Shown piece by piece: positions 765 through 60,355 of a DNA stretch of 64,000 bases; position 1 is the first letter of the stretch; the number at the start of each line of letters is the position of its first letter. Source of the stretch: Nakazawaea peltata (lineage: Eukaryota > Ascomycota > Pichiomycetes > Alaninales > Pachysolenaceae); contig BCGQ01000004.1 of the NCBI GenBank assembly GCA_001599355.1, positions 255,249 to 319,248 on the forward strand. The letters run 5' to 3'. The notes beneath the pieces were generated by a model. The model ran no database searches and was not told where the DNA came from. It worked only from the letters and a program-made list of their open reading frames with translations. A program made the translations under genes and the position numbers.

Positions 765-2954
765 ATGACCGACCAAGGGGATTCACTCTCAATTAGTAGC
801 ATGCAAGCGATGATGGACAAGAGTGAGGATGTGATAGATGAGATTGAGTTGAAGGAAGTTGAAGGAAATGAGAAAGGTCTGGAAGATCAATTAGAGAATG
901 AGAAAATCAATAATGATGTGCTGCAAGAACCTGAGAAGCCAAAGCTTCCTTTGGAATTTACTCAGTTCATTGAACTGTGTCAGAAAGGTGATTTAGAGGC
1001 TCTTAAGAAGCTTGTCGATTCGAAGAAGGTAGATCCCCTGATTGTACGTGATCAAGACGGAATCTCGGGACTCCATTGGGCTGCTATCAACAATAGGTTG
1101 AATGTAGTCAAGTATTTATGTGAGGATTGTACTGATGTGACAGTCGATGTTAGAGGAGGGGATTTGAGAGCCACTCCATTACATTGGGCTGCTAGATATG
1201 GGTTGGTATATGTTGTTGATTACTTGATAAAACGTGGGGCTGACCCATCGATATGCGATAATCAGGGTTTTAATGCCCTTCATTTACTGGTACATTCATC
1301 GAATGTCATGCTTGTTATTTACATGCTCAAATTCACTTCTATTCATGTCGATAGTGCCGACCCATCGGGCCGTACTTCACTCCATTGGGCACTGTACCAA
1401 GGAGATACTTTGACAGTTGATGTGTTATTGAAACATCATGCAGTAGTTATCCTTAGAGATACCACCCAGTTCACTGCTTTGCATTGGTCTTTGATGAGAG
1501 GTACTCCTCAAATTATGAAGGATTTGATCAGACTGGGACTGAGTGTTCATGATAAAAATAATGACGGCAAGGACTGTTTCCAGATCCTGAAAGACATGAA
1601 TTGTACTGATAGGTTACTTGCCGCTATGAAAGAATGCGGACTAGATCTGAATGGTGAGCCTCGTAACTCACTTCTCGATCCCAAGACCGCCAAGTTGGTG
1701 ACATTCTTCCAGCCTTATATAGTTCTCTATGGGGCGTTGCGTTTGTTAGATTTTGGTAATGATTATTGGATTGTCAAGCTTGGTCTCACTATCCTGTTCC
1801 TTGCTCTGAGTCAGATGATACTCATGAAGGTGCTCATTCCTTGCTATGTAAACGAACGTAACCCATTAATTAAAACTCCATACATGGCTGGGATTTTCTC
1901 TCTGACAGCATTTTGGGTCATTATAACCTGGTTCGGTTTGACTTATAAGGCTCCTTCTCATGAACATTACTCACCTTGGAATCTCACATTCTTCTTTTTA
2001 TTCCCACTTGTTCTGTTCTTCTTCTTTTCGGCCATGTTCATGGACCCAGGGTATTTGAAGACTCCAAGAGATCAAGAGGTAATTAAGAGAACTATATCTG
2101 AGCTTATAGATCTTCGCCTCTTTGATTCTAAACATTTCTGTATCTACACATACGTCAGAAAGCCATTAAGATCAAAATTCTCTTGGAATTCCAAATTGAA
2201 TGTTGCTCGTTTCGACCATTATTGTCCATGGGTTTACAATGAAGTTGGGTTACGGAATCATAAAGTGTTCATGGCGTTCATTTACGTATTAGCATTAACT
2301 ATAATTATGTATTTAAGAACAGTATACGATGTGTTTGACTCTTTGGATGATGATGCCAATGACAAATGTTCTCTTTTGGGTGACGATGCCATTTGTCTGG
2401 GTTATAGACAGATGCCTTTCGTCTATAATTTGGCAGTATGGTGCTGTTTCCAAATGACTTGGTTAACTATGTTAATTTTCGGTCAAACATTCCAAATTTG
2501 CCGTGGAATAACTTCTTATGAGCTGGCTACAAGTCATAGAGAAAGAGAAAGTGGAGATTATTCTAGTGTTCCTACAGATGATATCACGTCATCGGCCTCT
2601 GTATCTGGAGTCAATGATGGAAATTCAGCTGCCGGACCGGGTTCTGTAGCTGGTCATAACCATGGGTCCAAATCAAAATTATCATGTCTTACTGGATCTT
2701 CTCTTTCTAAACTTCTTGGTCTTGATCTTTTCATTATGAATCTTGGTGATGCTTTGGGTCAATATAAAAGTAATATCCCTACTAATTATGGGTTGGTTAC
2801 AAATTGGAAGGACTTTTGGTTTGTACGTTCTGAGGGAGAGTCATGTAATTACGGCTCATTGATCGCTATACCCGAAGGAGGAAGAGCTAATTTGAATGGC
2901 GAGGTTGTTAATTATTATAAGCTTTGGGAATTGCCAGGTCAATCGAATGTATAA
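765..2954 (+). CDS. AKR1: Palmitoyltransferase with ankyrin repeats (Akr1 family)
   Basis: Protein S-acyltransferase of 729 aa, close to the ~764 aa of S. cerevisiae Akr1. The acidic N-terminus is followed by about six ankyrin repeats (roughly residues 70-285, with repeated LHWAA-type cores). Hydrophobic segments then lie near 340-360, 375-395, 406-426, 500-520 and 555-580. The cysteine-rich domain carries the Akr-type DHYC catalytic motif at residues 484-487, not DHHC, followed by PWVYNEVGLRNHK. The family acts in Golgi/endosomal membranes and palmitoylates targets such as Yck kinases. The CTG at 1392-1394 lies in WA(CTG)YQGD, where the family has Ala. The C-terminal tail is Ser/Gly-rich. 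Confidence 0.95.
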   Translation: MTDQGDSLSISSMQAMMDKSEDVIDEIELKEVEGNEKGLEDQLENEKINNDVLQEPEKPKLPLEFTQFIELCQKGDLEALKKLVDSKKVDPLIVRDQDGISGLHWAAINNRLNVVKYLCEDCTDVTVDVRGGDLRATPLHWAARYGLVYVVDYLIKRGADPSICDNQGFNALHLLVHSSNVMLVIYMLKFTSIHVDSADPSGRTSLHWALYQGDTLTVDVLLKHHAVVILRDTTQFTALHWSLMRGTPQIMKDLIRLGLSVHDKNNDGKDCFQILKDMNCTDRLLAAMKECGLDLNGEPRNSLLDPKTAKLVTFFQPYIVLYGALRLLDFGNDYWIVKLGLTILFLALSQMILMKVLIPCYVNERNPLIKTPYMAGIFSLTAFWVIITWFGLTYKAPSHEHYSPWNLTFFFLFPLVLFFFFSAMFMDPGYLKTPRDQEVIKRTISELIDLRLFDSKHFCIYTYVRKPLRSKFSWNSKLNVARFDHYCPWVYNEVGLRNHKVFMAFIYVLALTIIMYLRTVYDVFDSLDDDANDKCSLLGDDAICLGYRQMPFVYNLAVWCCFQMTWLTMLIFGQTFQICRGITSYELATSHRERESGDYSSVPTDDITSSASVSGVNDGNSAAGPGSVAGHNHGSKSKLSCLTGSSLSKLLGLDLFIMNLGDALGQYKSNIPTNYGLVTNWKDFWFVRSEGESCNYGSLIAIPEGGRANLNGEVVNYYKLWELPGQSNV

Positions 2955-3185
2955 CTTGAATGAAAGTTGAATGTGCAATATGGAATATGTAGAATATGTG
3001 GAATATGTAGAAAAGAAGATTTAGAATATGTAGAATTATAGTATCGTCTCGATGCGCGCACCCCGCGTCTCGAAGAGACTAAAAAATACCTAAAAGAGCC
3101 AAAAGTCTCAAGATAAGTCTTCTGATCGTTAGAAGAACAAGTATTCAAGTAGTGGGGTTGTAAGAGTGCCACGGGAACGATATTC
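2955..3185 (+). promoter_or_regulatory. AKR1-PEP7 spacer with short tandem repeat
   Basis: This 231-bp spacer between two same-strand genes begins with imperfect repeats of GGAATATGTAGAATATGT (about 2980-3035). A GC-rich patch at 3050-3075 contains CGTCTCGATGCGCGCACCCC. No gene is seen. Confidence 0.4.
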
Positions 3186-6275: not shown

Positions 6276-7436
6276 ATGATCGTAACAATTAGCAGTAAAA
6301 GAGTTGGGAGTGTGGCAGGAGTGTGTTCCCGGACAGTTATAAAGAGAAGTTTCTTCAATTCGTCATTTTTCGGCTCGTCTCATAACGGCGCTGGGGCGGG
6401 AGCAAGAGCTGGAGCTGGAGCGGGGACGGGAGCTGGTAGTGGCGGTAGTTTCTGGCTGCAAGCGAATGGTTTCTCGAGTAATGGAAGCATTGATGGCATC
6501 TACAGATATAATATGGCTGTGGCGTACCAGCCTAAAGATAGGGAGTTGCTGGAGAAAGGCGCTCTTTACCAAAGGTTGGATAAACTGAATAAGGATAGAA
6601 GGCCTGAGATCATCTCCAGTAGTATGTCACCTACAGGGGAGGACAATTATGTGGCAGGCGTGAATAAGGCGACTAAACAAGTTCTTCTTGGGGTGGCTGA
6701 TGGTGTAGGAGGCTGGTCTGAAGTGGGGTATGATTCTTCTCTGATATCAAGAGAACTTTGTAAGGAGATGAGCTTGGAATTTGAATCATCGAAGGAATCG
6801 GTGGTGGATTTGAAGCTGCTTCTTCAAAATCTGTTCAATAATGTGCTTAAGAATGGAAAGGTCGATGTGGGAGGGACTACTATATGCTTTGGGGTGGTGG
6901 ATCTTGTGACTAATCGGTTCAGTGCGGCCAATTTGGGTGATTCCTGGTTCGGTGTGTTTAGAAGAAGCGATGATCTGGCCCCAGATTCCAATTTCCAATG
7001 CGTATATGAATCGAAGGAACAAACACATGGCTTCAATACACCTTATCAGCTCTCTATTATCCCTGAAAAACTACAAAGAGAGTCCCTGAAACAAGGTACT
7101 AGATATTTACAAGATCATCCAAAGCAACTGGATTTATATTTGGACTATGAATTGAAGAAGGGAGATGTAGTGATTTTTGCATCGGATGGTGTCACCGATA
7201 ATGTGTGTTCTGAAGACATTCTGGTGTTCTTAACTGACAATTTAAGTGCTTGTAGTGCTGGAGATGATCTTCTTCTTGAATCTGTGTCACAAAAACTTGT
7301 CCTGAAGGTTAATGCTCTTAGCAGAGATCCTAATTATCCTAGTGTTTTTGCTCAGAATTTATCAAATTTGATCCATCAAAAATATACAGGAGGTAAATAT
7401 GACGATATTACGTTGGTTATGTTCCAAATGGATTAA
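6276..7436 (+). CDS. PTC7: Mitochondrial type 2C protein phosphatase Ptc7
   Basis: A 386-aa PPM/PP2C phosphatase; S. cerevisiae Ptc7 is 343 aa. The N-terminus is basic and hydroxylated with no acidic residues, fitting a mitochondrial presequence, and is followed by an Ala/Gly run (about residues 35-55). Metal-binding motifs are present: GVADGVGGWSEVGYDSSAISREL (CTG at 6741-6743 is the conserved Ala), FASDGVTDN and the closing KYDDITLVMFQ. In yeast Ptc7 dephosphorylates Coq7 and helps coenzyme Q synthesis. The frame starting at an ATG at 6253 ends after eight codons, so 6276 is the start. The stop lies 17 bp from the SHE4 stop (convergent). Confidence 0.93.
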   Translation: MIVTISSKRVGSVAGVCSRTVIKRSFFNSSFFGSSHNGAGAGARAGAGAGTGAGSGGSFWLQANGFSSNGSIDGIYRYNMAVAYQPKDRELLEKGALYQRLDKLNKDRRPEIISSSMSPTGEDNYVAGVNKATKQVLLGVADGVGGWSEVGYDSSLISRELCKEMSLEFESSKESVVDLKLLLQNLFNNVLKNGKVDVGGTTICFGVVDLVTNRFSAANLGDSWFGVFRRSDDLAPDSNFQCVYESKEQTHGFNTPYQLSIIPEKLQRESLKQGTRYLQDHPKQLDLYLDYELKKGDVVIFASDGVTDNVCSEDILVFLTDNLSACSAGDDLLLESVSQKLVLKVNALSRDPNYPSVFAQNLSNLIHQKYTGGKYDDITLVMFQMD

Positions 7437-13187: not shown

Positions 13188-15584
13188 TTATACACTGACC
13201 CATTGTATGGCCATCAGCTTGTTGGTTACGGCACTACGTACCATCCAGATCAGTACTAACAATGCCACAATAGTTCCTATCAATTGTATTCTGCTTCCCA
13301 ACAGCTTTTGTGAATCTGACAAAGCATCAAATCTACCTGAAGGAGACAATTCGATACAGAAAAAGTCACCCCCCTGAGGGCCTCCGTAGGCACATACAAG
13401 AGTAGTACTTTCGAGGGCTGTCTGAGAAGATTTGATGCTCAGTTTACCAGATCTACCAATATGGAAGGGCAACCCGTGAGTGACAGAGTCGTATTTTAAT
13501 ACGGGTTTAGGTAAGATGTCGGACTGTGTTATCACTGGTTTAGGGATTTGAATGATTCCATGGTCTAAAGTAACTGCCACTATCAGCTTTGTAGCTATAT
13601 TGAATTTGGTTTGGGTGACAGTGAGCAGTAAGATACGATGTGGAACTATGAATGAGTTAGAGATGATCGATGGTTCTTTGGAGAGGTTCAATCTCTCGTC
13701 AGGGTTCAACGATTCGTATAAATCAACAACTACCAACTTCTGTTCAAATGTAGGTGTGTAGCCCAAGTAACTGTAGATGATGAAGTTCTCATCGTAGGCA
13801 ATTGAGAATGGGGCCGACTCGTCTATACGGACAAACTCATCTGAGGAGTGATCGATCACCAGAACGACTTCTCCTGTGACTACGCTAAGTAATTGAAGTT
13901 GTAAGGCTCCAGCCTCGGTCAATCTCAGTACAACGAAGAGGTTAGGTACAAGATACTTGTATAATACTTTACGATCTTTTTGGATCAATCCGATACTAGC
14001 CACGTTGTCGTTATTCGGGTCGGGTCTTGAAGCCGAAGCGATGAGCCCAGAGATGTGTTTAGTCCAAGTCTTGGTGATAGAGGAGCCATTCAAAATCAAT
14101 CCCTCTATAGTTCCCGTTGAAAGATCAACATGCAGCAGATAACGAGGTTGTACGTCTTCTTGTGGGTATATAATCATCTTGTAGTCTCCATTGATGAGTT
14201 TCAGGTACAGATAAATATCGTCGACGACTTGGATATCGGAGACTTGGTCGTTCCAGTACTTTGGGTCGTTGTCTACTGTGATCAGGACGAGCTTATCGGA
14301 GTTTGTGAGTCCTAAAATGTGCTCACCACATAATTCCAATTTCTGAGCGTCTTTAAGATCACCTACAGTATGAGTGAGGTGGGTTGTTACGTCTATCATT
14401 CCACCTTCGGATGGACCACCGTAATAGATATCTGGAAGACGACGAGATGGGTCGGCACGAAGAATGAAATCGGATATCTCTGGGAACAGATCAAGACTCC
14501 AGATATGTCCATCAGTACTATATAATTGCCATTGAGTGGTTAATGCGATTGTTTTACCTGAGACCGAAGTATCGAAGAGGATGAAAGAGTCTTCAGAAGA
14601 TACGATTTTATCGATTTCGATTCCTGTCTCGGCATCGATGATAAGCAATTCCTGTGGAGAGACCGTGTCATAAATAAGGCTTCCTTTGATGATTGCAGCT
14701 TCTGAGGTCTTGTCAGGGGATGAGTAGATCAGCTCATCGTCATTCCAATTGTAAAATGTGGGTCCTTGGAAGTAACCCAATGGCGAGATACTCCTGCTTT
14801 TACTAGTTCTCTTGACTACATTACCATCTAATTTCAATTCGTAGATATCGGCTGGTGTATCTATAGCATTACTCGAGTGATGTTTCGACGAGCTTAAAGC
14901 TCTGACAAAGATGGAGTCTTTGGAATCTTCGGCAATGGTGATCTCGATTGTATTTTTCACTGGCCATGAAACAGTTGGCTCCCATGATGAAGTATTGTAG
15001 AGAGAGACCTCATTTTGAGTCAGTACAGCTATCAAGTCCTTGTCCTCCATAGGATATATCAATTGAACCTCTTCCAACGGTGTAGTTGATACAGTGGCAT
15101 TGATTCCAGTGGGAGATTTCTGGAGGGTCAAAATATCGACGAAACTAGTACTCTCTTTTGAGAGGTAAACATGGTTCAATCTTTGGTCATATGTTAATAT
15201 CTTGGTATACGGATGCTCCAATGACTTGACCAAGGCCAAATTGTCGATGTCGTGGACTCTTATTCCCCGCTTGTTGTCAGCTATTATATAATAGTCCAGA
15301 AACAGATAAGTCTGGACATCAGAAGCTGTGGCGGGGTAGGAAGAGCCTTGAATGTGCAGTTTTTTGAGGGTTTGACCACTCTTGAGATCTACCGAGACAA
15401 TGGACTGTAGAAACAGACTGTATGCAACGATTATATTCTTATGAGGCACCATTAATGGATCTGTGAAAGTCTCAGTGGAAAATCCCAATGAGGAGAATGC
15501 GGTACCCAGCTCTTCCTCGGTAATACACATGGCAGCGACTACCAATGTCGCTAGAAGCAACATGAATCTGGATATGAGCAACAT
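13188..15584 (-). CDS. EMC1: ER membrane protein complex subunit 1
   Basis: A 798-aa protein; S. cerevisiae Emc1 is 760 aa. From the ATG at 15584 there is a signal peptide (MLLISRFMLLLATLVVAAMC), a long lumenal beta-propeller-type region, and one C-terminal membrane segment (about residues 760-785, LIGTIVALLVLIWMV) close to the end KLMAIQWVSV, typical for the family. The complex inserts tail-anchored and multipass proteins into the ER membrane. The frame is open for 72 codons upstream (to 15800), but that part has no signal-peptide character and is rejected. MGR1 lies just upstream; the same pair is adjacent in S. cerevisiae (YCL045C-YCL044C). Confidence 0.9.
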   Translation of the reverse strand: MLLISRFMLLLATLVVAAMCITEEELGTAFSSLGFSTETFTDPLMVPHKNIIVAYSLFLQSIVSVDLKSGQTLKKLHIQGSSYPATASDVQTYLFLDYYIIADNKRGIRVHDIDNLALVKSLEHPYTKILTYDQRLNHVYLSKESTSFVDILTLQKSPTGINATVSTTPLEEVQLIYPMEDKDLIAVLTQNEVSLYNTSSWEPTVSWPVKNTIEITIAEDSKDSIFVRALSSSKHHSSNAIDTPADIYELKLDGNVVKRTSKSRSISPLGYFQGPTFYNWNDDELIYSSPDKTSEAAIIKGSLIYDTVSPQELLIIDAETGIEIDKIVSSEDSFILFDTSVSGKTIALTTQWQLYSTDGHIWSLDLFPEISDFILRADPSRRLPDIYYGGPSEGGMIDVTTHLTHTVGDLKDAQKLELCGEHILGLTNSDKLVLITVDNDPKYWNDQVSDIQVVDDIYLYLKLINGDYKMIIYPQEDVQPRYLLHVDLSTGTIEGLILNGSSITKTWTKHISGLIASASRPDPNNDNVASIGLIQKDRKVLYKYLVPNLFVVLRLTEAGALQLQLLSVVTGEVVLVIDHSSDEFVRIDESAPFSIAYDENFIIYSYLGYTPTFEQKLVVVDLYESLNPDERLNLSKEPSIISNSFIVPHRILLLTVTQTKFNIATKLIVAVTLDHGIIQIPKPVITQSDILPKPVLKYDSVTHGLPFHIGRSGKLSIKSSQTALESTTLVCAYGGPQGGDFFCIELSPSGRFDALSDSQKLLGSRIQLIGTIVALLVLIWMVRSAVTNKLMAIQWVSV

Positions 15585-15900
15585 TTGAAGCAATTGGGCT
15601 CTGTTTGGCTCTATACCAATTGGTTGATTCCTGGTTTTGATCTGAATTGACTTCCGCCTGAGCGCGAGCCCATTTTCGCTGGGGAGTCTCTGCCTGAATT
15701 GGGCGGAGCTTGATGGGATAAAAGGTCGTGTAAATAGTACAAATGGAGATGGGATGATGGGAATGATGATGGGAATGGGTCTAATGAATATATCAGGCAT
15801 CTCTCATACTACCAGTCTACTACTATGAATCCTTTTATCTACACATATCACTTTAAATGCACTATTTATCATTATACCCATTTTATCTAGCCTTATATAT
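15585..15900 (-). promoter_or_regulatory. EMC1 upstream region
   Basis: A 316-bp gap between the EMC1 start and the MGR1 stop. It holds the upstream open extension of EMC1, a CATC/ATGG-rich simple stretch (about 15745-15785) and an AT-rich tail. No separate gene is seen. Confidence 0.35.
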
Positions 15901-18585: not shown

Positions 18586-20235
18586 CTAATTCTCCCCCGG
18601 TCTCACCTTTTCATCCGGATAATAATCACCAATTGCAAAGTTTGGATGAGGTACAAAATCTGGAGGAAGATCCTCATAACTTCTCAGGTTATTTTGAGCC
18701 ATATTTGCTGAGTTTGATGTACCTTCTTGATCCATATCTTGACTTTCTTGGTGGGTCTCTTGCTGAGCTTCTTGCTGAGTTTCTTGCTCAGTCTCTGGGT
18801 CTCCACCCGATGACATTTCTCCCCCCTCCTCAATCTCTTCCTCAAAATCATCATATTCATACATATCATTCTCATGATACCCCTCCATCTCATTTCCCTC
18901 TATTGAGATTTCCCCATATTCAAACTCTCCAGAATCTATAGATATCTCAGAATCTGGAACAAAGGAAAGCATATCTTGTAATTCAAACTCATGATCTTGT
19001 CTTCCTAACTCCACTCTATTTGATCCATTTTGAACACCCAGATGTCTCAGATTTTTCATGAAAATATTCATAAATCTTCTTCCTGGCCGATTATTATTCC
19101 CATCATCAGAATCTGAGTCCGAGTCCGTAGCTACAATATACGGACCCGCTCTACGATTACCTTTAATTTCGCCTTCATTCTCATTCTTAATCTCCCTGCC
19201 CACAATTCCCCTCCTCTCAAATTCCCCACTCACCAGCTCAATATCTAAAATCCATTCCCAACTAAGAGCTGCTGTCATTACTTCAGTAAATAAGAAAAAG
19301 CAATCTGCCCAACTTCTCGAGTTAGAAGTTCGAGTAACGATGAAGAACACAAATGGAGCTACCATGAAAACCATTGTCAACAGCAGTAACGGCCAAACAC
19401 TTCGGCTGAACAGGAATCGGCTTTTATGATAAGCATAGACAAGCACCGTTATAATAAAGAGAAGGTGGATTGAGAGTTGAGTGACAACATCTACGATTTC
19501 AATCAGACCCCACGGACCGCTTTCCTCACCATTTGACTCCCCATTCATATATTCATTTCTCCTCTTAAGCAGATTCACCAAAAAGAATACCAAATTCACT
19601 GTAATAAACAACGGTCCCAACCTCCAAATCCATTTTTTATACCTAGACGAATCCAGTGTATATAATATTATCTCCAACCATGCCACTAAAGTTAGCAATT
19701 GGGATACAAACATAAGCATAGTATATACAAGTCCATACAATATACGATTCTGGAACGTTTCAACGTCTTGAACATTTGAGATCAGTAATTCTTTCACTAA
19801 TTTGTTGAACTGGTCAAGGACCACCGAAACAGCAATGGCAAAGAATAAGGTCGCGAGCTTTATAGAGTATGGCTTTCTATGACTTGACAAAAGAAGCACT
19901 AATAGGAGCATCCAAGCTGATACCAGAACGGCGCTTAGCAGAAAAGCTGATGAAATGAGACCCGTTGTGAAGTCATCTACTGCTGACGATAGAAGATCTT
20001 GATCCATTGAGTCAATGTAGAATTGGAGCAGCTGTGTATAGACGGTCTTTTCGGCGCCTAAATCGGATATAAATGCATCATTTTGACTATCAATCTCACC
20101 AGAGCAATTTGTCACATAAAGAACCGGTAACTTGAGTGAAGTATCATTGAGAAGGACTGTTTTATTGGCCCAGTCATACAGAATCAAAGATCCCAGAGCT
20201 AAGTAGTACACTGAGCATGAGGAATAATTGAGCAT
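18586..20235 (-). CDS. DFG16: PalH-family ambient-pH sensor (Dfg16/Rim21 type)
   Basis: A 549-aa membrane protein. A lumenal/outside N-terminal part of ~100 residues with a few Cys and N-x-S/T sites is followed by seven membrane segments spread over about residues 98-335. A long acidic Ser/Glu/Gln-rich cytosolic tail (340-549, with QETQQEAQQETHQES) completes it. This is the layout of PalH proteins, which sense alkaline pH at the plasma membrane and pass the signal through Rim8/ESCRT to the Rim101 protease complex. Two paralogous types exist, Rim21 and Dfg16. I favour Dfg16 because SHE4, AKR, the bZIP gene and HSP78 are its S. cerevisiae neighbours (YOR030W region). Confidence 0.75.
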   Translation of the reverse strand: MLNYSSCSVYYLALGSLILYDWANKTVLLNDTSLKLPVLYVTNCSGEIDSQNDAFISDLGAEKTVYTQLLQFYIDSMDQDLLSSAVDDFTTGLISSAFLLSAVLVSAWMLLLVLLLSSHRKPYSIKLATLFFAIAVSVVLDQFNKLVKELLISNVQDVETFQNRILYGLVYTMLMFVSQLLTLVAWLEIILYTLDSSRYKKWIWRLGPLFITVNLVFFLVNLLKRRNEYMNGESNGEESGPWGLIEIVDVVTQLSIHLLFIITVLVYAYHKSRFLFSRSVWPLLLLTMVFMVAPFVFFIVTRTSNSRSWADCFFLFTEVMTAALSWEWILDIELVSGEFERRGIVGREIKNENEGEIKGNRRAGPYIVATDSDSDSDDGNNNRPGRRFMNIFMKNLRHLGVQNGSNRVELGRQDHEFELQDMLSFVPDSEISIDSGEFEYGEISIEGNEMEGYHENDMYEYDDFEEEIEEGGEMSSGGDPETEQETQQEAQQETHQESQDMDQEGTSNSANMAQNNLRSYEDLPPDFVPHPNFAIGDYYPDEKVRPGEN

Positions 20236-23348: not shown

Positions 23349-24083
23349 ATGAATGGTGCAAATGGCCAAGAAGACTCAACGTCTGTTGTTGGAGTACCAA
23401 TAGCTGATACTCAAAGAAATCTTAGAACCAGAGCAGCAGATTCCACCTCCAATTCCATCAGAGAAACGGCAGCTGAAGGTCGTGTCGAAGACGCGGTAGT
23501 GGACCAGACACCAGGAATCGGCTCTGACTCTTCTGTATACTCTCAATCGCTGCAATATGCTCATATTGTGCCTAAGGCTCCGTCATATACCAGCGGGAAT
23601 CTGATGCCGGCAGGAGCTGTTAGCACTTTTGCCGCTGGAACCAACGTCCCTGGGAGCGTGTTCAGTCAATTCAATGAGGATGTGTCGAGCGCGGTACTGC
23701 TGCTGGTCCGCGTGGGTCGTGAACCGCGTCATCAACTGAAGCATCTGGAGACCCAGCGTCGAATCATGAAACTCAGTGCTCCGAAAGGTGATTCGACTGC
23801 TCTCTCAAGTTCCTCCGGCGGCCGCTCTATCTCACCTCTGGTACCTTCTACCACTGTAAGTACCAATGAGGGAGTATCCGCCACCCCAAGAAGAGCCAGC
23901 ACGAGGAGGGCAGAGCAAAATAGAAAGCTGCAAAAACTGTTCCGTCAAAGAAGAGAGAATTATTTCAAAGAATTAGAGGAGCAAGTAAAGGAGGTGCCTT
24001 CGCTTCGGCAAAAGATAGCTCAATTAGAGGAAGAAAATAGGGTATTGAAGGATTATATAGTTCAGCTTCAAGCTAAGAAGTAG
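23349..24083 (+). CDS. Yap-type bZIP transcription factor (CIN5/YAP6 position)
   Basis: A 244-aa protein. The N-terminal ~180 residues are Ser/Thr-rich and disordered. The basic region starts at ~N191: read with CTG=Ala it is NRKAQKAFRQRRENY, an exact fungal AP-1 (Yap) signature NxxAQxxFR. Read with Leu it would lose both signature alanines (CTG at 23928 and 23937). A leucine zipper with heptads (ELEEQVKEVPSLRQKIAQLEEENRVLKDYIVQL) runs to the C-terminus. The ATG at 23349 (ACAAAATG context) is preferred. HSP78 lies close by, as with YAP6 (YDR259C) and HSP78 (YDR258C), so this is probably the single CIN5/YAP6 ancestor, linked in yeast to salt and drug stress. Confidence 0.82.
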   Translation: MNGANGQEDSTSVVGVPIADTQRNLRTRAADSTSNSIRETAAEGRVEDAVVDQTPGIGSDSSVYSQSLQYAHIVPKAPSYTSGNLMPAGAVSTFAAGTNVPGSVFSQFNEDVSSAVLLLVRVGREPRHQLKHLETQRRIMKLSAPKGDSTALSSSSGGRSISPLVPSTTVSTNEGVSATPRRASTRRAEQNRKLQKLFRQRRENYFKELEEQVKEVPSLRQKIAQLEEENRVLKDYIVQLQAKK

Positions 24084-24730: not shown

Positions 24731-26323
24731 ATGGATTCCAAAGATTCAAAAATCGCAGTCCATGCGACTGTTGAGGAGCTGTTATCTGAATCATCTTCCC
24801 CAGAACCTCAAAAGTTCACCACCAAACTTGTCAAGATCCCATTTGCTAAAAAGAAGGAATTGTTCTTTTCCAAAGAAACCCCCCCTGGCCCAGCAAAAAG
24901 ACCTTTCTTCCTTTGGCACCCTCCAGGAAGATCTGCTTACGAAAAGAAGTTGGTTTTCAAGCTTGACTGTGTCTTATTGACTTTGGTCTGTTTCACCTTC
25001 TTCGTCAAGTATATGGATCTGAGTAACCTTTCGTATGCTTATACCAGTGGTTTGAAAGAGGACTTCAACTTGAGTGGAGACGATTACAATTGGATCTCGA
25101 CTGCCTTCTCTTTGGCCTACGCTTATTGTGGTGTCTTCTTGACTGTCTTGCTTACCAAGATTAGACCAAGTATCTTGTTGCCTACCTGTGAGTTGATTTG
25201 GGGAGCATTGACTCTGATGGTCGCTGCTACCACCGGTTATAAGAGTATCTTGGCCGTCAGAATTCTCCAAGGTGCTATCGAAGGTATTAGTTACCCTTCA
25301 ATTAACTATCTTTTGGGAGCTTGGTACACTCGTGAGGAAATCACCAAGAGAACTGCTATTTTCTGTGTCTCTGGTTCTCTTGGAACCATGTTCGGTGGTT
25401 ACATTCAATCGGGTATCTATGCCTCTTTATCAGGTAAGGGATCGTTGGCTCCTTGGAAATGGGCTTTCATTGTCGATTTCTTGATTACTCTTCCTGTTGC
25501 CATTGCTTGTTTCCTCTTCTTGCCAGACACTCCTTCTGAACAAAGACCAAACTGGATCTTCTCTGCTGAGGAGATTGAATTCTTGAAGAGAAGAGTCGCT
25601 TTAGAACAAGAACATATCGAGGAGTCCAACAAATTCGATTGGACTCTTATCAAGAACGGTTTGGCTTCTTGGCAATTCTGGGTCTTGCCATTGGCTTACT
25701 CTTTAGGTCAAATTGGTGAATACGTAAGTGGTTATTGGGGTATTGCTTTGAAGCTGGATGGTTACAGTGTTTACCAGGCCAACAATTATCCAACCATTTG
25801 TAATGCCGTCAATATTGTGATCGCGCTTTCTGCTAGTGTTTGGACTGATTACAGACAGACCTTCTGGGAGCTGTATACTGCTGTCAATGTGTTGTGGATT
25901 TTATCTTTTGCGATCCTTGTTGCTTGGGAAGTTCCTCTGGGCTTGAAATTCTTCGCTTTCTGTATTTGTAAAATGACCAGTACCACCTCTTCCACCATCT
26001 GTTCATGGTCAAACTTCAATATGAAACATGACAGACAACTTCGTGCTTTGGTTTTAGGATCTTTTAATGTTTGTTACAGTATTTTCTACACTGCTATTCC
26101 TCTTACTGTTTGGAATACCAATTATGCTCCAAGATATAAAGATGCTCATCTTGTTCATTTGATTCTCCAAGTCATTTCTACATTTTTCACCCTTGTTGTT
26201 CTTGCATTTGACAGATATCAAAGAAGAAAGATGCAATACATCGAGTCTCAATTGACCGACCAATCTACTGTTACTTATGAGGAGGAAGAGCAAGAGGACG
26301 AGAAGATTCTGTTGAAGCTGTGA
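24731..26323 (+). CDS. Dal5/Fen2/Vht1-type anion:cation symporter (MFS)
   Basis: A 530-aa plasma-membrane permease of the major facilitator superfamily, ACS family. An ~80-residue cytosolic N-terminus ends in FFLWHPPGRSAYEKKLVFKLD, then 12 membrane segments follow. Family hallmarks are DLSNLSYAYTSGLKEDF after TM1, RILQGAIEGISYPS in TM4 and LPDTPSEQRPNWIF in the central loop. The C-terminus is acidic. Relatives carry allantoate, pantothenate, biotin, nicotinate or cysteine; the substrate cannot be told from sequence. GATA sites upstream favour a nitrogen-linked substrate. The start is the first ATG, 24731. Codon bias is strong, pointing to high expression. Confidence 0.85.
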   Translation: MDSKDSKIAVHATVEELLSESSSPEPQKFTTKLVKIPFAKKKELFFSKETPPGPAKRPFFLWHPPGRSAYEKKLVFKLDCVLLTLVCFTFFVKYMDLSNLSYAYTSGLKEDFNLSGDDYNWISTAFSLAYAYCGVFLTVLLTKIRPSILLPTCELIWGALTLMVAATTGYKSILAVRILQGAIEGISYPSINYLLGAWYTREEITKRTAIFCVSGSLGTMFGGYIQSGIYASLSGKGSLAPWKWAFIVDFLITLPVAIACFLFLPDTPSEQRPNWIFSAEEIEFLKRRVALEQEHIEESNKFDWTLIKNGLASWQFWVLPLAYSLGQIGEYVSGYWGIALKLDGYSVYQANNYPTICNAVNIVIALSASVWTDYRQTFWELYTAVNVLWILSFAILVAWEVPLGLKFFAFCICKMTSTTSSTICSWSNFNMKHDRQLRALVLGSFNVCYSIFYTAIPLTVWNTNYAPRYKDAHLVHLILQVISTFFTLVVLAFDRYQRRKMQYIESQLTDQSTVTYEEEEQEDEKILLKL

Positions 26324-26840: not shown

Positions 26841-29357
26841 CTAAAGACCCTCAGAATCGACTTTGTCATCCATCTTCTCAATAACTTCTCCCTTACCCTC
26901 ATTAACTACAAGTTTCTCATTTTCAACACCAATTTCCACTGTCTGTCCATCACGAATTTCTCCCTTGATCATCCTCTTCGACATAGGGTTCAATACAGCC
27001 GTCCTGATCAACCTATTCAATGGTCTAGCACCATAAACTGGATCATATCCATGCTGAGCTAACCAATCTTTCAGTTCATCAGAGAAATGAAGTCTAATTC
27101 TGCGGTCAAGTAACCGTTCTTGGACCTCATTAAGACGGATATCCACAATACTACGAAGCAGCTCAGGTGCAAGCCTGTTAAATACCAAAACATCATCGAG
27201 TCTGTTAATAAACTCAGGTGGATAATGATGTTTCATTAATTCAATTACGTTTTGACGAACTTCTGGAGAAATTTTGGACTCAGAAGCGTCTTGAAGAAGC
27301 AATTCTTGTCCGATATTCGACGTCATTACAATTATGGTATTCTTAAAACTTACATGAGTACCATGAGAATCGGTTAACAGCCCTTCATCGAGCACTTGAA
27401 GAAGTAACTTGGAGATATCCGGATGAGCCTTCTCAAATTCATCAAACAACACTATACTATAAGGTTTACGACGGATTGCCTCGGTCAATTCACCTCCTTC
27501 TTCATATCCCACGTATGAAGGAGGCAGACCTACCAATCTCATTACAGTATGACGTTCTTGGAACTCCGACATATCGAACCGGACAATCAGTTTGTCGTCA
27601 TCGAATAAAAATTCCAGAAGCAGTTTGGTGAGCTCGGTCTTACCTGTTCCTGTTGGGCCCAAGAACATGAAGGACAGAATAGGACGCTTGGAGTCGGTCA
27701 ACCCAGCTCTTTGTAATCTTACAGCATCGGCAATACTGGAGATCAGCTCATCTTGACCCACTACTCTTCCTCTGAGCAGTTCTTCCATGTAAAGAAGCTT
27801 ATCTTTTTCTCCAGCCATGAGAGACAGCAGAGGAATACCGGTCATTCTGGCGATGACACGGGCGATATCGTCGGCAGTGACAGCGTCATGGAGCAAGTTC
27901 GAAGCCCCTCCATTACTTCCTACGTTTTCTACATCTTTTTCTACACCTTCTACAGTGAATTTCAGAGCCTTCTCAAGAGCTGGAATCGTCAGATATTGTA
28001 ACTCTGACAGTCTACCGAAATCACCTTCTCTTCTGGCTACTTCCAATTCATGACGAGCTTTCTCGAGATCTTCTTTCAGTTGCTTGACTTTATCCATTTT
28101 AGCTCTTTCTTCGGTCCAGATAGCAGTCAAACGGTCCAGTTCCTGTTGTTTTTGGGTCAATTGAGACTCTAATTTGGCTCTTCTTTCGACTGAAATCACA
28201 TCGGTTTCCTTTCTTAAACTCTCAAGTTCAATCTTGATAGTCACGATTGCTCTTTCCAAGTCCATAATGGCATCGGGTTTCTCCTCATGTTGTAATCTCA
28301 AGACACTACAAGCTTCGTCGACTAAGTCGATCAGTTTGTCCGGATTGAACCGGTCAGCGATATAACGGTTACTGTAGACGGCCAGGGTTACCAAGGCAGC
28401 ATCATGGATCTGGACTCCATGATGTAACTCGTATCTCTCCTTCAATCCTCTCAAGATACTGACGGTATCTTCGACTGAAGGTTCTTGGACGGTAATTGGT
28501 TGGAAACGACGCAGTAACAGCAGGTCTTTCTCGATGATTTTGTACTCGTCCAATGTAGTAGCACCACAGCATTGTAACTGACCACGAGCAAGAGCAGGTT
28601 TCAACAAATTGGAGGCATCGATAGCCCCCTCCAGCTTACCTAAGCCTAATAAAATATGAAGTTCATCGATGAATAAGATGGTATTTCCATGGGCTTCTTC
28701 GAGTTCTTTTAAAACCAGCTTAAGTCTCTCTTCGAAATCACCTCTGAACTTGGCTCCACTGATCAAGGCTCCCAAATCTAAGGCTACTACCTCTTTATTC
28801 TTCATACTTTCCGGGACTTCTCCTCTGACAATTCTTTGCAGTAATCCTTCGAGGATCAGGGTCTTACCTGTACCGGCTTTTCCGATCAAAACGGGGTTGT
28901 TCTTGGTTCTTCTGGACAAAATCTGAATAGTCCGGCGAATTTCCTGGTCTCTACCGATCACAGGGTCCAATTTCCCACTCTTTGCAAGCTCTGTTAAATT
29001 GGTTCCGTATTTTTTCAAGGCTGGTTCTTCAGCTTCTCCTTGACCTTGACCACCATTGAAGTTCATTCCGAATCCATTTGGGTTACCACCTTGATGAGAC
29101 AGGTATGTTCTATGGCTTACCAATTGGAACGATCTGGAAATCATCCGATTTGGTTCTTTGAGACTCCTTTGAAAGTTGCCACTCCTTGACAATATCGCTT
29201 GAGATTTGCTCATCGCATCGCTTTGGGGGGTGGAAAATGCCCGATTTGCCCCTGAAAATGACGAGATTGGCGTCTTTGTGTATAGAGCCAGCAGAGAGGA
29301 TCCCGAAACATGTGGATTCAATGCTGAAACTCTTCTTATCATCTGTCTCCTGATCAT
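26841..29357 (-). CDS. HSP78: Mitochondrial ClpB-type disaggregase Hsp78
   Basis: An 838-aa matrix AAA+ chaperone (S. cerevisiae 811 aa). A basic presequence (~1-100) replaces the ClpB N-domain. NBD1 has Walker A KAGTGKT (160-166) followed by AILEGLAQRIV, a coiled-coil M domain spans about 365-480, and NBD2 has Walker A GPTGTGKT (567-574), then ELTKALAEFL and [13 protein letters not shown]. All of these read correctly only when CTG is Ala (codons at 28857, 28839, 28512, 28518, 28521, 27675, 27615, 27621, 27525). It re-folds aggregated proteins with mitochondrial Hsp70. A heat-shock element lies about 100 bp upstream. Confidence 0.97.
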
Positions 29358-36055: not shown

Positions 36056-37350
36056 GAAGTTTGTTACTTTTGTTTGCTAGATATAATATAATAATAGAAG
36101 GTCATAAGAGCATCGTCAATGGTGCCTCTTTGTTGTATAAAAGGACAAAAATTCTTAAATATAATTAACATGGAAAGTGGTTTTTTTTAATTAAATTGTA
36201 AGACTCTCTTCTGATGACGGGAATAGAATAGTAGACGTTTCTTGTTATCTGATGTTCCTGTCATTTCTGAATAGTTCCTAGGGGTAAAGATATTGCTAAC
36301 GTGATGGTTTACTTGAAAGAGTCGCACTGGAGTCACCTACGCTACAGATAATTAGTAATATTCACTATTCCATTGGGAGAAGAATGGACCGAGGCAGTGT
36401 GTCTGCGGAGGCAACTGAATGCTCAGAGCCATATTATCTATATACAACTTTCAAAAGGCAATTTAGCGGCTCGTTAGCTACACCATTCTTTGCCTATTTC
36501 ACCTCCAGTTACCTCCCTCCCTTCTTTTTTTTTACTCCCCTTATGTTTAAGTGGTGCTACATTTTTAGCCAGAGCGGAAAAATTTTCTTGTGTAACATCG
36601 CCTCTTTTTCCAACTCAGCCTGAAGGCAGAAAAAATTCTCTCCTAAAAGCAGCGCATTAATAAAAATAATTCGTAAAAAAAGGGCATAAGTAGGAGGGCT
36701 TCGGCATTCCACTTGGAGGGCAAAATTAAGTGCATAAGGAATTCGAGGCTTTGAACTCCAGTTATAGGTTGCTGCAAGGCAGCAGGGCGTCCAAATTCAA
36801 GTGGTGCTCCCTGCAATAGTTGCGAATAGGGGACACTATACGCTACTCAAATTCAGTCGCGTTAACAATTTCAGCGAAACCTACTATCTACTTGAATGGT
36901 ATGCAATAATTCTTATTCTCGATCTTATTCAATTTAACTTTTCGATGTCTAACGGTGCTTGGCCCCAATTCGCCTGCATCGTTTCTTATGTTTCACACTG
37001 TTTTTTTTGTCCCAATTAGGATAGTACGGAATTTTGTGTATCTGTGCACGACTATCTGAAGTTCTAATGTTACTATCCCCAAGATCTCATCTCTGTGATG
37101 TCAACTGAAGCTATGGACGAGCCATAAAAAAGGGTCACCTTTTCTCTAGGCCATCTTGAAGTAGCTGGTATTGTTATATAATAACCCTTTCTTTATTTTC
37201 AACGCTTCCTTTAATCCAGAAAATTATTTACATATGCATCTCTTTTTGTGGCTCTATCTTGGGGGAATTGTGAGAAACTTAATATTTGTATCCCCTTTTT
37301 GTTAACTCGGATATTTATCTTGAAACTATAGCCGGTAATAGTAAAAGCTT
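36056..37350. promoter_or_regulatory. 1.3-kb spacer between the mini-gene and SPS1
   Basis: No gene is seen. It carries two more AGGGCA elements (36678, 36717) and the SPS1 middle-sporulation element (37244-37252). T-rich 3' processing-like stretches follow the mini-gene (36060-36190). Confidence 0.5.
37244..37252 (-). promoter_or_regulatory. Middle sporulation element of SPS1
   Basis: TTTTGTGGC, in reverse GCCACAAAA, is a full match to the Ndt80 site gNCRCAAAW. It lies about 100 bp before the SPS1 ATG. SPS1 is a known middle-sporulation gene. Confidence 0.6.
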
Positions 37351-39518: not shown

Positions 39519-39591
39519 GCCCGTGTAGCGTAATGGTTAACGCGTTTGACTTCTAATCAAAAGATTCTGGGTTCGACTCCCAGCATGGGTG
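39519..39591 (+). tRNA. tRNA-Arg, anticodon UCU
   Basis: A 73-nt cloverleaf without intron. Acceptor GCCCGTG pairs with CATGGGT (two G-U pairs), discriminator G. The D-arm has TAGCGTAATGGTTAACGC, the anticodon stem is TTTGA/TCAAA with loop CTTCTAA (anticodon TCT), and the T-arm is CTGGG-TTCGACT-CCCAG. It reads AGA. A Pol III T-rich terminator follows directly (from 39592). Confidence 0.96.
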
Positions 39592-39640
39592 CTTTTCTTT
39601 TTTATTTTTTTTTAATTTTTTTTGTCTTTGTGGCACAACT
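39592..39640 (+). terminator. Pol III terminator T-runs after the tRNA
   Basis: CTTTTCTTTTTTA and then T10 and T8 runs directly after the tRNA 3' end; several back-up stops. Confidence 0.7.
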
Positions 39641-51311: not shown

Positions 51312-54215
51312 ATGAGGAACACCAAAGTACAGCCGATGACGAGCGCTTCGGATGAGAATGCGTCCGATAGAACTCGGGATCCTTCTACTGAGAGATCAAA
51401 TAGCAATAGAATTGTCTCAAGGTTGAGGTCAATTCCTTCTATTAGAACTGACTCTCTGGATGAACCATCACTTCCTCCTTTATTACATTTCCCATCTCAA
51501 CTGTTACTTGATGCCACTTATAATACGAGTTTGAGATCTCCTCGTTTACCTCAAACTCCTGCTGCTGTTCCGCCTACCGGAATAGCTTCATCAGGTGAAT
51601 TCTTTGCTGACCGTGATGAGACACAATCGTTGCTTGGCGTCTCCCGTCCTCTGTTATTCCGAAACAGATCATTACAACCACAGGCATCTATTTATGGAAG
51701 TATTAGGGGCGGCCCAGATACTACGTTTGCCTCTTATGATGAACATCCCGCTGTTCCAGAGACTGAGAAGACCAATTTTTATGATGATTTCACCACTATT
51801 GACTGGCTTGATAACTCGATTCAGCAATCAGAAAGACTCTCTAATTTGACTCGTATGGCTAATCGTTCCTGGCGTATGAAACTTAAAAAGAATTTTGATC
51901 ATGCCAAGAGCTGGATTTTGATCGTCATCATATCGTTTAGTTGTGCCATTTTACTGTACTGCATAGACGTAGTTGAGAATTTATTGATCGACTTGAAGCG
52001 TGGGTACTGTGTCTCAAGCTGGTTCTTGAGCGAGAGTGCTTGTTGCAGTGGCTATAAGCCTCCACTGGGGACGAAGGGCAACGAAATATTTAGATATGTG
52101 CATCATTTAGAGGCTCCTGACTCAGCATTATGTCCAAAATTCAAAACATGGTCAGAGTTCTTCAATGTTGGAGATTCTAACAGTTCCTTCGATATAGAGT
52201 TTGCCATTTACCTGTCTTTATGTATCATCTTAGCCTTCCTGGCTGTACAGATTACTTTGCTTACAAAGACAACAAATCCATTGCTCTATCTGCAACAACA
52301 ATCTTCTGAGGAAGAGGCTACAGGGAAGGATTCTCATGCATCAACTTCAGCTCACCGTAACTACAAGGTCTGGTATACTGCTTATGGATCCGGTGTGCCT
52401 GAAGTCAAGACCATTTTATCAGGGTTTGTTATTCGTAAATTTTTGGGTACTTGGACATTGATATGTAAACTGCTGTCTTTGGTCTTGGCTATCGCATCAG
52501 GAATGTCTCTCGGTAAAGAAGGCCCTTACGTTCATTTATCAGCTTGTATCGGTAACATCTGCTGTCGTATTTTCAATAAGATTCATCGTAATGATTTAGA
52601 GAGAAGGCAAATCCTTAGTGCTGCCGCAAGTGCAGGTGTCCTGTTACTGTTCGGGTCTCCTTTGGGAGCTGTTTTGTTCACCATCGAAGAGGTGGCGTAC
52701 TATTTACCAATCAACCAATTGTTTCATATCTTCATTTGTGCGATGATGTCGACTTTATTTTTGAAATTTTTGAACCCTTATGGGACCGGGAAGACAGTCT
52801 TGTTCGAGGTTGAATATACAAGTGATTGGGTACCTCTTGAAATATTGTCATTTATAGTCATTGGTGTTGCTGGAGGTGTATTTGGTGCTGCTTTTTGTAC
52901 CTTCACTCAATGGTGGGGTCGTCATTACAGGTCTCTTAGTTTTATCAAGGATAAACCTGTTGTTGAAGTACTAATAATTGCTGTTTTGACGGCTATAACC
53001 ACATTCTACAACAAATATACTAAGATTGCTACAACTGAATTACTTTATCAATTAGCAAGTCCTTGTACAATTGAGAATTTGTGCCCAGTTTTGGACTTTC
53101 AACAAGTTTCAGATGCCGGAGGAATAACTACAGTCAATCAATCTAAGTTAATGGCTGATTTGGGTGATATTTCGGTAGCATTTATTGTCAAATTAGTACT
53201 CACATCAGTTACTTTTGGACTGAAATTGCCCCTGGGTATCTATGTACCTTCAATGACCATTGGGCTGTTGTTCGGAAGATTCTTTGCTATGTCTCTTGAG
53301 TATACATTGGGATCACGAGATAGTTGTAGTACGGTGTCTAATTCAGAGATGTGTACGACAAGAGTTGACTTCGGAATCTACGCAATGATTGGGGCCGGTC
53401 TGTTTATGGCTGGTGTCACCCGTATGGGAGTTACATTGGCCCTGATATTATTCGAGTTAACTTCATCTTATTCGTACGTGCTTCCAATTTCAATTCTGAT
53501 AGCCATATCCAACTGGGTGGCCAACATGCTTGAGCCTTCTTCATTATATGAATTATTGATCCTGAAGAATGACTTCCCATTCTTGGACAATAGGTCGACT
53601 CCAGTTTTCATCGACAAGACAGCTCGAGCTGTAGATTTAATCTCTCAAAAAGATAGTTTACAGTACACTATTGATATTTCAGATTCGCCTTATTATCCAA
53701 TGTCGGTCATGAGAGCTAAATTGCGTCTTTTACAGCAAAGCTCTTTACTAGATGGATGCCTTTCTGTTGTAAAATCTCACGGTGATGTTCTTATAGGGTT
53801 GATACCTGCACCGTCTTTAGAGTTTCAGTTAGATAAATTGGACAATTTTGCACAGGAATATAATATCCAAGAAGAGATCATGGTTAAATTGCTGAATGAA
53901 CATGATCCAGATCAAAGTTTCGGGTCTAACTCAGACCTTGTTTCAAATTTATCTGATGTCTCCGAATTATCTCATTTACCTCAAGAGGAAGTCATAGTTC
54001 TGTTATTGAATAAGTTGACCGATTTCACGCAGATAATAGATCACAACCCAATCTATATCGATCATGATAGTAGATTGAGTCTTGTATATTCGGTATTCAG
54101 TAAGTTAGGGACTAGAGAGATTTGTATGCTCAATGCTGATGGTAAATTTTGTGGAACTCTTCACAAGAAAGTGTTTATTGATTACTGCAAGAGGCAGAAA
54201 CTGAAACATAATTAG
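51312..54215 (+). CDS. GEF1: CLC-type chloride/proton exchanger (Gef1 family)
   Basis: A 967-aa protein, longer than Gef1 (779 aa) through an extended Ser-rich N-terminus. CLC hallmarks: GSGVPEVK (359-366), GKEGP (401-405, gating Glu403), TIEEVAYYLP with the proton-glutamate pair near E459/E460, and FGAKLPAGIYVPS around 637-645. Both CTG codons there (53220, 53232) fall on the usual small residue. Keeping both glutamates marks an exchanger, not a channel. The C-terminal ~200 residues hold two CBS domains. Gef1 acidifies Golgi/endosomal vesicles and supports copper loading of Fet3. Confidence 0.88.
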   Translation: MRNTKVQPMTSASDENASDRTRDPSTERSNSNRIVSRLRSIPSIRTDSLDEPSLPPLLHFPSQLLLDATYNTSLRSPRLPQTPAAVPPTGIASSGEFFADRDETQSLLGVSRPLLFRNRSLQPQASIYGSIRGGPDTTFASYDEHPAVPETEKTNFYDDFTTIDWLDNSIQQSERLSNLTRMANRSWRMKLKKNFDHAKSWILIVIISFSCAILLYCIDVVENLLIDLKRGYCVSSWFLSESACCSGYKPPLGTKGNEIFRYVHHLEAPDSALCPKFKTWSEFFNVGDSNSSFDIEFAIYLSLCIILAFLAVQITLLTKTTNPLLYLQQQSSEEEATGKDSHASTSAHRNYKVWYTAYGSGVPEVKTILSGFVIRKFLGTWTLICKLLSLVLAIASGMSLGKEGPYVHLSACIGNICCRIFNKIHRNDLERRQILSAAASAGVLLLFGSPLGAVLFTIEEVAYYLPINQLFHIFICAMMSTLFLKFLNPYGTGKTVLFEVEYTSDWVPLEILSFIVIGVAGGVFGAAFCTFTQWWGRHYRSLSFIKDKPVVEVLIIAVLTAITTFYNKYTKIATTELLYQLASPCTIENLCPVLDFQQVSDAGGITTVNQSKLMADLGDISVAFIVKLVLTSVTFGLKLPLGIYVPSMTIGLLFGRFFAMSLEYTLGSRDSCSTVSNSEMCTTRVDFGIYAMIGAGLFMAGVTRMGVTLALILFELTSSYSYVLPISILIAISNWVANMLEPSSLYELLILKNDFPFLDNRSTPVFIDKTARAVDLISQKDSLQYTIDISDSPYYPMSVMRAKLRLLQQSSLLDGCLSVVKSHGDVLIGLIPAPSLEFQLDKLDNFAQEYNIQEEIMVKLLNEHDPDQSFGSNSDLVSNLSDVSELSHLPQEEVIVLLLNKLTDFTQIIDHNPIYIDHDSRLSLVYSVFSKLGTREICMLNADGKFCGTLHKKVFIDYCKRQKLKHN

Positions 54216-58825: not shown

Positions 58826-58862
58826 ATATTTATTTATTTATTTAATTTATTAATTTATTTAT
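58826..58862. repeat. TATT microsatellite in the shared 3' region
   Basis: A (TATT/TTAA)n run between the two converging stops; it overlaps the last codon of MTS1. Confidence 0.6.
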
Positions 58863-60355
58863 TTGGCCCATTTGATACCCTTCAACAAACCGGTTTGTTT
58901 TGGAATGTACTCGACTCTGTGGTAAGAGTTCAAGTTCTTTCTCAAAACAATTTGGTAACAGGTCAGAGAACCTTGTCTGGAGACAATGGTGGAGGAGGCC
59001 AAGAAGAATTCCCAGATTCTGTACCATTTAACACCATAAGTGTTAATAACCTTCTCCTTGTTGCTGATCCAGTTAAGGTACCATTTCCATAAAGTCAGAG
59101 AATAGTGGACACCAATGTTATCAATGGAAACAACTTCGAAACCAGTACCTTCCAAAGAATCAACGACGAACAGTAATGGAGTAGACAGATCCAGACCTGG
59201 GAAAATGTACTTGTTCATGAATAAACCCCATTCCAAGTCCTCGTATTGCCATGACTTTCTCAAACCTGCATATTGCAAGTAGAAAATACCATCATCTTCC
59301 AACATGTCATAGACTTGTTGTAAGAAAGAACTGAACTTTCTGATACCAACGTGCTCGGCCATTTCCAAACAGGTGATCTTGTCATACTTCTTACCTTCTG
59401 GTAATGGAGTATCTCTGTAGTCCATACACAAAATCTTGGATTGAGATTCTGGAACACCATGTTTCAGCAATTGCAGCATACCGTATTTAGTTTGGTTTCT
59501 ACCTAAAGTGATACCAGTGACGTGAGCACCATATTGAGAGGACAGGAACAGAGCCAAAGTACCCCAACCACAACCCAAATCCAACATGTATTCACCTTTC
59601 TTCAAGTCAATCTTCTCACAAACAGTCTTCAACTTGTTGTCTTGCAAAGTCTCCAAAGATTCCTCCAGGTTGATATCACTGATGACACCAGAAGTATAGA
59701 TCATACGATCACCCAAGAACCAACTGTAGAAATCGTCACCCCTGTCGTAGTGGTCTCTGACTTGTTCCTCATCTTGAGATCTAGTGTGCATAATGACTTC
59801 AGGGATCATACCGAAAAGGAAGAATCTGAAAAGAGACATGGTGAATTTGAAGTTACACCAATCGTGTCTGTATTCAAGAATGTCCAAACAGTCACCTTTG
59901 AAAGAGACCTTGTTGGCAAAGTACAATTCGTGGAAGGTTTCATAAGGGATCTTGTTGTTACCGTGATACTTCTTCAGCAACTCCTCATCATGGAATTCTA
60001 AGTAATATTCGACTCCACGGTTTGGCAATTTAACCTTCTCATTCAAACGAGGAGAGAAACTAGACATGACGGTCCAATACAGCATCAAGATTGGAATGAT
60101 GGTGACAAGGAAGAAGAAAATGAAGGTGAATTTACCCAAACCAAGTTGTCTGGTGATGTACCATGGGACAAAGAGGGCAATTGCACCCAAGATCCAATTG
60201 GAGAAATGCTTCGAACCTGGACCATCGGCTGGTAATGGAGCGTTCAGGATCAGGACGTAATCGGTGGTGCGGAATCCACAATCAAAGGCCAAATCAGCCT
60301 TGGTCAATTGAGCTCCAGACACCTTAGGTTCAGAAGTCGAAACGGCAGAAGACAT
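58859..60355 (-). CDS. MTS1: Sphingolipid C9-methyltransferase
   Basis: A 498-aa enzyme of fungal glucosylceramide synthesis that adds the 9-methyl group to the sphingoid base using S-adenosylmethionine. Two membrane segments lie at about 50-100 and a third hydrophobic stretch near 190. The SAM-binding motif DLGCGWGTLAAFASSQYG begins at residue 259 (both CTG codons, 59543 and 59549, are the usual Ala), followed by GITLGRNQTKYG and EMAEHVG as in cyclopropane-synthase-like enzymes. The first ATG is 60355; the frame before it begins with TTG. S. cerevisiae lacks this gene. Codon bias and a TATA box at 60434-60440 suggest strong expression. Confidence 0.95.
   Translation of the reverse strand: MSSAVSTSEPKVSGAQLTKADLAFDCGFRTTDYVLILNAPLPADGPGSKHFSNWILGAIALFVPWYITRQLGLGKFTFIFFFLVTIIPILMLYWTVMSSFSPRLNEKVKLPNRGVEYYLEFHDEELLKKYHGNNKIPYETFHELYFANKVSFKGDCLDILEYRHDWCNFKFTMSLFRFFLFGMIPEVIMHTRSQDEEQVRDHYDRGDDFYSWFLGDRMIYTSGVISDINLEESLETLQDNKLKTVCEKIDLKKGEYMLDLGCGWGTLALFLSSQYGAHVTGITLGRNQTKYGMLQLLKHGVPESQSKILCMDYRDTPLPEGKKYDKITCLEMAEHVGIRKFSSFLQQVYDMLEDDGIFYLQYAGLRKSWQYEDLEWGLFMNKYIFPGLDLSTPLLFVVDSLEGTGFEVVSIDNIGVHYSLTLWKWYLNWISNKEKVINTYGVKWYRIWEFFLASSTIVSRQGSLTCYQIVLRKNLNSYHRVEYIPKQTGLLKGIKWAK

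Follow-up and report, generated by a model that had tools for sequence, protein, structure and literature searches.

A genetic code in which CUG is read as alanine (Ala) was discovered in 2016 in the yeast Pachysolen tannophilus, and the clade using it is described to also include Nakazawaea and Peterozyma (PMC5951914). In agreement with this source, the initial annotation of the DNA analyzed here had treated the reassignment as established in the three genera, all of which are placed in the order Alaninales in the NCBI taxonomy. The code is listed as NCBI table 26 and is therefore not new in itself. In a Codetta screen of 462 species, the known code distribution was matched in 453, with no call in nine (PMC8629427). 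Here, we analyzed a stretch of 64 kilobases (kb) from Nakazawaea peltata contig BCGQ01000004.1, referred to as the window, with regard to the meaning of its CTG codons. Judged from its sequence, the window almost certainly comes from the nuclear genome of a budding yeast in which table 26 applies and CUG is read as Ala.

The window contains 28 ATG-started open reading frames (ORFs) of at least 200 amino acids, of which 27 were used, while the ORF at 61990-62781 (+), which lies opposite another ORF, was excluded. CTG accounts for 356 of the 13,867 sense codons in these 27 ORFs (0.0257, 2.6%). Among the five codons that would encode Ala under table 26 (CTG and the four GCN codons) it is the most frequent one (356/1018), whereas GCG is the rarest (46). 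Without CTG, the residue shares are 4.8% for Ala, 9.3% for leucine (Leu), and 10.2% for serine (Ser). If CTG is added to one of these residues, Ala rises to 7.3%, or Leu to 11.8%, or Ser to 12.8%, the last of which speaks against a Candida-type code (table 12) with CUG read as Ser. The composition shift is in favour of Ala but is only suggestive. The number of CTG codons ranges from 5 to 39 in 25 of the ORFs. The remaining two are neighbouring ORFs with just 2 CTG each: ORF 48160-49164 (+), which is rich in Ser and acidic residues, has no Pfam match and carries 21 GCT, and ORF 49591-50619 (-).

The meaning of CTG was scored against bacterial homologues of three window proteins, namely an HSP78/ClpB-like mitochondrial disaggregase (26841..29357, -), an MTS1-like methyltransferase with a CMAS domain (58859..60355, -), and a CLC chloride channel/exchanger with ClC-3 as best solved relative (51312..54215, +). 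The comparators were 62 bacterial ClpB sequences (60 genes, two phyla), 30 bacterial MTS1 relatives (one phylum), and 31 bacterial CLC frames (one phylum). A contig scan with HSP78 gave only 2 loci, and most bacterial homologues came from a separate genome search. One codon type at a time was masked in the window protein, the protein was aligned, and each column received a score for each of the 20 amino acids, whereby CTG columns that were unaligned or had less than 70% weighted occupancy were dropped. After this, HSP78 retained 27 of its 29 CTG codons and MTS1 9 of its 14. For CLC only the core (residues 350-768) was used, which comprises 11 of 22 CTG codons.

Ala was the best of the 20 amino acids in each of the three families when scored alone (HSP78, Ala +28.2 bits and Ser -29.6; MTS1, Ala +2.6 and Ser -4.2; CLC, Ala +8.9 and Ser -8.4). 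The 36 CTG columns of HSP78 and MTS1 together gave +30.8 bits for Ala, -33.8 for Ser, and -87.1 for Leu, and every amino acid other than these first two scored below Ser. With CLC included (47 columns), the values were +39.7 for Ala, -42.2 for Ser, and -103.3 for Leu, and MTS1 and CLC without HSP78 (20 columns) yielded +11.5, -12.6, and -29.6, respectively. The alignments thus show that the conserved columns under CTG prefer Ala over the other 19 amino acids. Ala came out on top in 4999 of 5000 bootstraps of the 36 columns, and when 36 non-Ala columns were drawn at random 5000 times, no draw came up to the Ala score that the CTG columns had reached. As a control, the other codons of HSP78 and MTS1 were assigned in the same way, and 52 of the 59 seen came out with their standard meaning, the 7 misses having 1 to 8 columns each. 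In the CLC control, a distant family, three of the nine codons printed were wrong (TTA as Ile, CTC as Ala from 2 columns, and TCT as Ala). A CUG read as Ser would fit the fact that Ser was the second-best amino acid in this test, but Ser trails Ala by 82 bits over the 47 columns and by 24 bits without HSP78. CTA was considered as a further recoded codon, for the column of HSP78 residue 25 is Ala-like, but this residue belongs to the N-terminal presequence, a region in which we consider the alignment with bacterial ClpB unreliable. Two other CTA codons in alignments to PDB entries face Ile and Leu, and CTA was left as Leu on these three codons, which are few.

The following column counts refer to HSP78 and MTS1, unless CLC is named. 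Among the 43 columns with at least 80% Ala, the window has CTG in 10, GCT in 9, GCC in 5, GCA in 2, and other codons in 17, so that CTG makes up 10 of the 26 Ala-reading codons, above every other codon. Eight of the 27 scored HSP78 CTG codons fall in columns with at least 90% Ala. CLC contributes one further conserved site (residue 652, 85% Ala), and the best CTG column of MTS1 is residue 271 with 74% Ala. With regard to columns of at least 80% Ala, CTG resembles the GCN codons (10/36 versus 16/53, Fisher p = 1.0). The initial annotation had named CTG columns consisting mainly of Leu or Ser as the outcome that would speak against Ala; instead, 13 of the 36 CTG columns have at least 50% Ala, none has at least 50% Leu, 1 has at least 50% Ser, and none reaches 80% Ser. 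Likewise, no CTG occurs among the 9 conserved Ser columns. If the standard code applied and the Ala matches had arisen by chance or by true substitution, CTG should behave as the other Leu codons, 53 of 113 of which stand in columns with at least 50% Leu. However, among the 56 columns with at least 80% Leu, CTG occupies none and the other Leu codons occupy 41 (0/36 versus 41/113, Fisher p = 2e-6), and Leu trails Ala by 143 bits over the 47 columns. The column counts thus already rule out the Leu reading, provided that the alignments are correct, and we regard its probability as practically nil. A CUG that is ambiguous, with mainly Ala and a minor share of Leu or Ser, would be a variant of the Ala reading and not an alternative to it. 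The column statistics would be compatible with a second residue at a level of a few per cent, and ambiguity is known in some other recoded yeasts according to PMC8629427, but the absence of CTG from the columns with at least 80% Leu speaks against it. PMC8645108 mentions a study suggesting 10% Leu in P. tannophilus, but calls this figure mistaken and cites more than 99% Ala. Overall, we consider such a mixed decoding to be quite unlikely.

For a three-way comparison, 30 frames (the 27 ORFs and 3 shorter ones) were scanned against Pfam under table 1; 10 of them had no match, and the comparison was continued with the other 20, a selection that is biased toward Leu. Each of these 20 domain-bearing frames was translated three times, with CTG set to Leu under table 1, to Ala under table 26, and to Ser under table 12, and 27 family rows were summed. 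Overlapping families of one stretch were excluded from this sum, although AAA and AAA_2, which were both counted, may overlap in the second domain of HSP78, and PHD, AAA_18, and bZIP_1 (under Leu) score below the Pfam cut-offs. In total, Ala was ahead of Leu by 106.8 bits, with 21 rows higher, 2 lower, and 4 tied, and ahead of Ser by 22.6 bits, with 16 rows higher, 6 lower, and 5 tied. In the 23 rows outside HSP78, the lead over Leu was still 75.5 bits. Judged by these profile scores, Leu is clearly rejected, whereas Ser is only weakly rejected outside HSP78. The choice of the ankyrin family matters here, as the rows of the AKR1-like ankyrin/DHHC palmitoyltransferase (765..2954, +, 16 CTG) are mixed: the counted Ank_2 scores best with Ser, by 7.8 bits over Ala, and the omitted Ank scores best with Ala, by 9.1 bits over Ser.

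Solved relatives were compared for six genes with one comparator each, whereby CTG was aligned as Leu and the aligned stretch was partial for CLC, EMC1, and PTC7. The residue opposite the 54 CTG codons is Ala in 20 cases, Ile in 7, Leu in 5, Gly in 4, Ser in 3, and another one in 15; the 5 that face Leu are what this comparison offers to the standard code. In the same alignments, the other Leu codons face Leu in 109 of 206 cases and the GCN codons face Ala in 54 of 114. Ser codons face Ser in 36 and Ala in 21 of 144 cases, which makes Ser and Ala hard to separate and leaves some room for the Ser reading. Given the column scores, however, we consider a Ser code to be very unlikely.

Several observations weigh against CUG being Ala. 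In the codon control of HSP78 and MTS1, the Ser codon TCA (6 columns) was also assigned Ala. The 20-way test relies on distant comparators from bacteria, which span two phyla for HSP78 and one for the others, and all 10 CTG codons in the columns with at least 80% Ala belong to HSP78 alone. Without HSP78, the lead of Ala over Ser in the Pfam sum shrinks to just 6.7 bits, with Ala ahead in 12 rows, Ser in 6, and a tie in 5. Among the individual rows, MFS_1 and Rua1_C are top with Leu, by a slight margin, and Pkinase, Ank_2, AAA_18, and Recep_L with Ser; among the rows outside the sum, AAA_22, T2SSE, and Methyltransf_23 are top with Leu and AAA_5 and AAA_7 with Ser. The 28 CTG codons outside HSP78 that were compared with solved relatives face Ala 7 times, Ile 6 times, and Leu 4 times, and these pairs were discarded as sole proof, being too weak to part Ala from Ile and Leu.

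The initial annotation had derived the Ala reading from CTG codons within conserved motifs of six genes. All 17 codons cited are indeed in-frame CTG (minus-strand positions denoting the leftmost base of the codon), its gene names AKR1, PTC7, HSP78, and MTS1 agree with the domains found, and its reading of CUG is supported by Ala being the best of 20 amino acids in three families separately and the best of three in the Pfam total. Its claim that none of the signatures would survive with Leu or Ser at the CTG went too far. Multi-sequence columns were available for 13 of the 17 sites, and Ala is top at 8 of these, namely at HSP78 residues 167, 173, 279 (0.49), 280, 579 (0.52), 581, and 611 and at MTS1 residue 271 (0.74), but the relatives lack Ala at at least 6 of the 17. 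Ala is not top at HSP78 282 (Glu/Gln) and 561 (Gly), MTS1 269 (Arg/Ile), and CLC 637 (Ser) and 641 (Gly). For the PTC7-like PP2C phosphatase (6276..7436, +, 11 CTG), the solved homologue that matches best, 6ae9, has Leu at the cited site, 6741 (residue 156). At the AKR1 site, 10 aligned stretches from two ankyrin chains have Ala in 6, Ser in 4, and Leu in none. The two sites in the bZIP factor (23349..24083, +) were judged by the whole-domain Pfam score alone, which is 24.6 with Leu, 32.5 with Ala, and 31.5 with Ser. Cited sites without Ala in the relatives look like ordinary substitutions. A motif reading from a single gene was thus ruled out as proof, and since single motifs vary, the conclusion rests on the summed scores and not on each motif.

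With regard to the mechanism, the route described in PMC5951914 would apply. A transfer RNA (tRNA) for Ala, tRNA-Ala, presumably acquired a CAG anticodon by mutation. Since alanyl-tRNA synthetase needs no anticodon bases, such a tRNA-Ala(CAG) would, going by the literature, still be charged with Ala and would deliver it at CUG, and the tRNA-Leu(CAG) would have been lost. No tRNA with a CAG anticodon was found in the 64-kb window, which was searched with and without introns; the sole tRNA found there is a tRNA-Arg(UCU) (39519..39592, +).

Pfam and PDB searches of the window yielded a budding-yeast gene set. In addition to the genes mentioned above, it includes EMC1 (13188..15800, -), whose EMC1_C score is 115 with Leu, 121.8 with Ala, and 121 with Ser; PalH/RIM21 (18586..20235, -; 188, 197.8, and 195.1, in the same order); and an RPAP1-like protein (30714..32072, +; RPAP1_C, 93.1, 100.4, and 99.1). 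The MFS transporter (24731..26323, +; 123.7, 121.8, and 123.2) is an exception. Further window proteins are a FYVE/Rabenosyn-domain protein, an ING/PHD protein, and a P-loop protein with a weak resemblance to 2ga8 (YFH7; E value 0.002). A kinase that is presumably of the STE20 type (37351-38870, +) is interrupted by a 59-base intron (37428-37486, GTGAGT...ATACAG), and joining its exons gives a frame of 486 amino acids that includes the glycine-rich loop found in kinase N-lobes. The window is otherwise gene-dense, but about 5.3 kb at 32073-37350 lack any ORF of at least 200 amino acids. No Rfam match was obtained within this region, and no inverted repeat of at least 25 bases was found in 32073-37658 (5.6 kb), so that no claim of a centromere is made.

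As the code is known, the less expected feature is the heavy use of CTG, including at conserved sites of at least one protein. It might be that CUG, far from being a rare remnant, has become one of the leading Ala codons of this lineage and has filled nearly invariant Ala sites; we hold this tentatively, with somewhat less than even confidence, whereby the conserved-site part rests on one gene, HSP78, to which CLC adds one site. A change from GCN to CTG takes at least two base changes, and each conserved Ala site with CTG would therefore have passed through another residue or changed two bases together. According to the code table, and not traced on a tree, the intermediate on the shortest path would be Val or Pro. 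If CUG is indeed a leading Ala codon, a recoded codon could occupy conserved sites again even though the path there is costly, and this would bear on the question whether recoding stays at neutral sites. A yeast codon-usage survey omitted its five CUG-Ala species, as its software was unable to handle them (PMC6701816), so that CUG use in these yeasts may be little studied. We found no paper on CUG use at conserved sites in the Ala clade in a search by title and the start of the abstract, with supplements and many journals lying outside the search. The window suggests heavy CUG use, which would be of help in understanding the return of a reassigned codon to conserved sites. In practical terms, 356 residues in the 27 large ORFs would be wrong under table 1. 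In at least one published genome of this clade, that of Nakazawaea ambrosiae, the AUGUSTUS annotation took S. cerevisiae as its reference species (PMC10106607), and a term search of the main text of that paper gave neither the word CUG nor the word codon.

Compared to the published recoded clades, the window differs in its CUG usage. In those clades CUG is described as relatively rare and as tending away from conserved sites (PMC5951914), with mean frequencies in recoded species of 0.005 in GAL1, 0.003 in GAL10, and 0.006 in GAL7 (PMC8084343). For Pachysolen, PMC4986446 reports that CUG is absent from Leu or Ser positions of the highest conservation (score of at least 90%) and counts some at Ser positions of lower conservation. 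For the CTG clade, the same paper, which predates Ala being considered, gives 3.4% on average as the share of CUG at highly conserved Ser positions. In the window, CTG makes up 2.6% of codons and stands at conserved Ala sites in HSP78, although the comparison is not like-for-like, since it involves different genes and different alignments. Among the Leu codons of the 27 ORFs, CTA is the least used (47 of 1287, CTG not counted), as reported for CUG-Ser yeasts (PMC6701816). In the CUG-Ser1 and CUG-Ser2 yeasts (table 12) the same codon is reassigned, but the residue there is Ser, whereas here it would be Ala, with Ser 82 bits behind. Going by its code, the window most likely belongs to the Ala clade. 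Its GC content is 40.8%, compared to 42.3% in Nakazawaea ambrosiae (PMC10106607, Table 2), which would fit the genus Nakazawaea but is no proof of it. The closest likeness is to the code of Pachysolen tannophilus (table 26), with CUG most probably read as Ala, 52 of 59 other codons assigned their standard meaning, and a gene set of a budding yeast.

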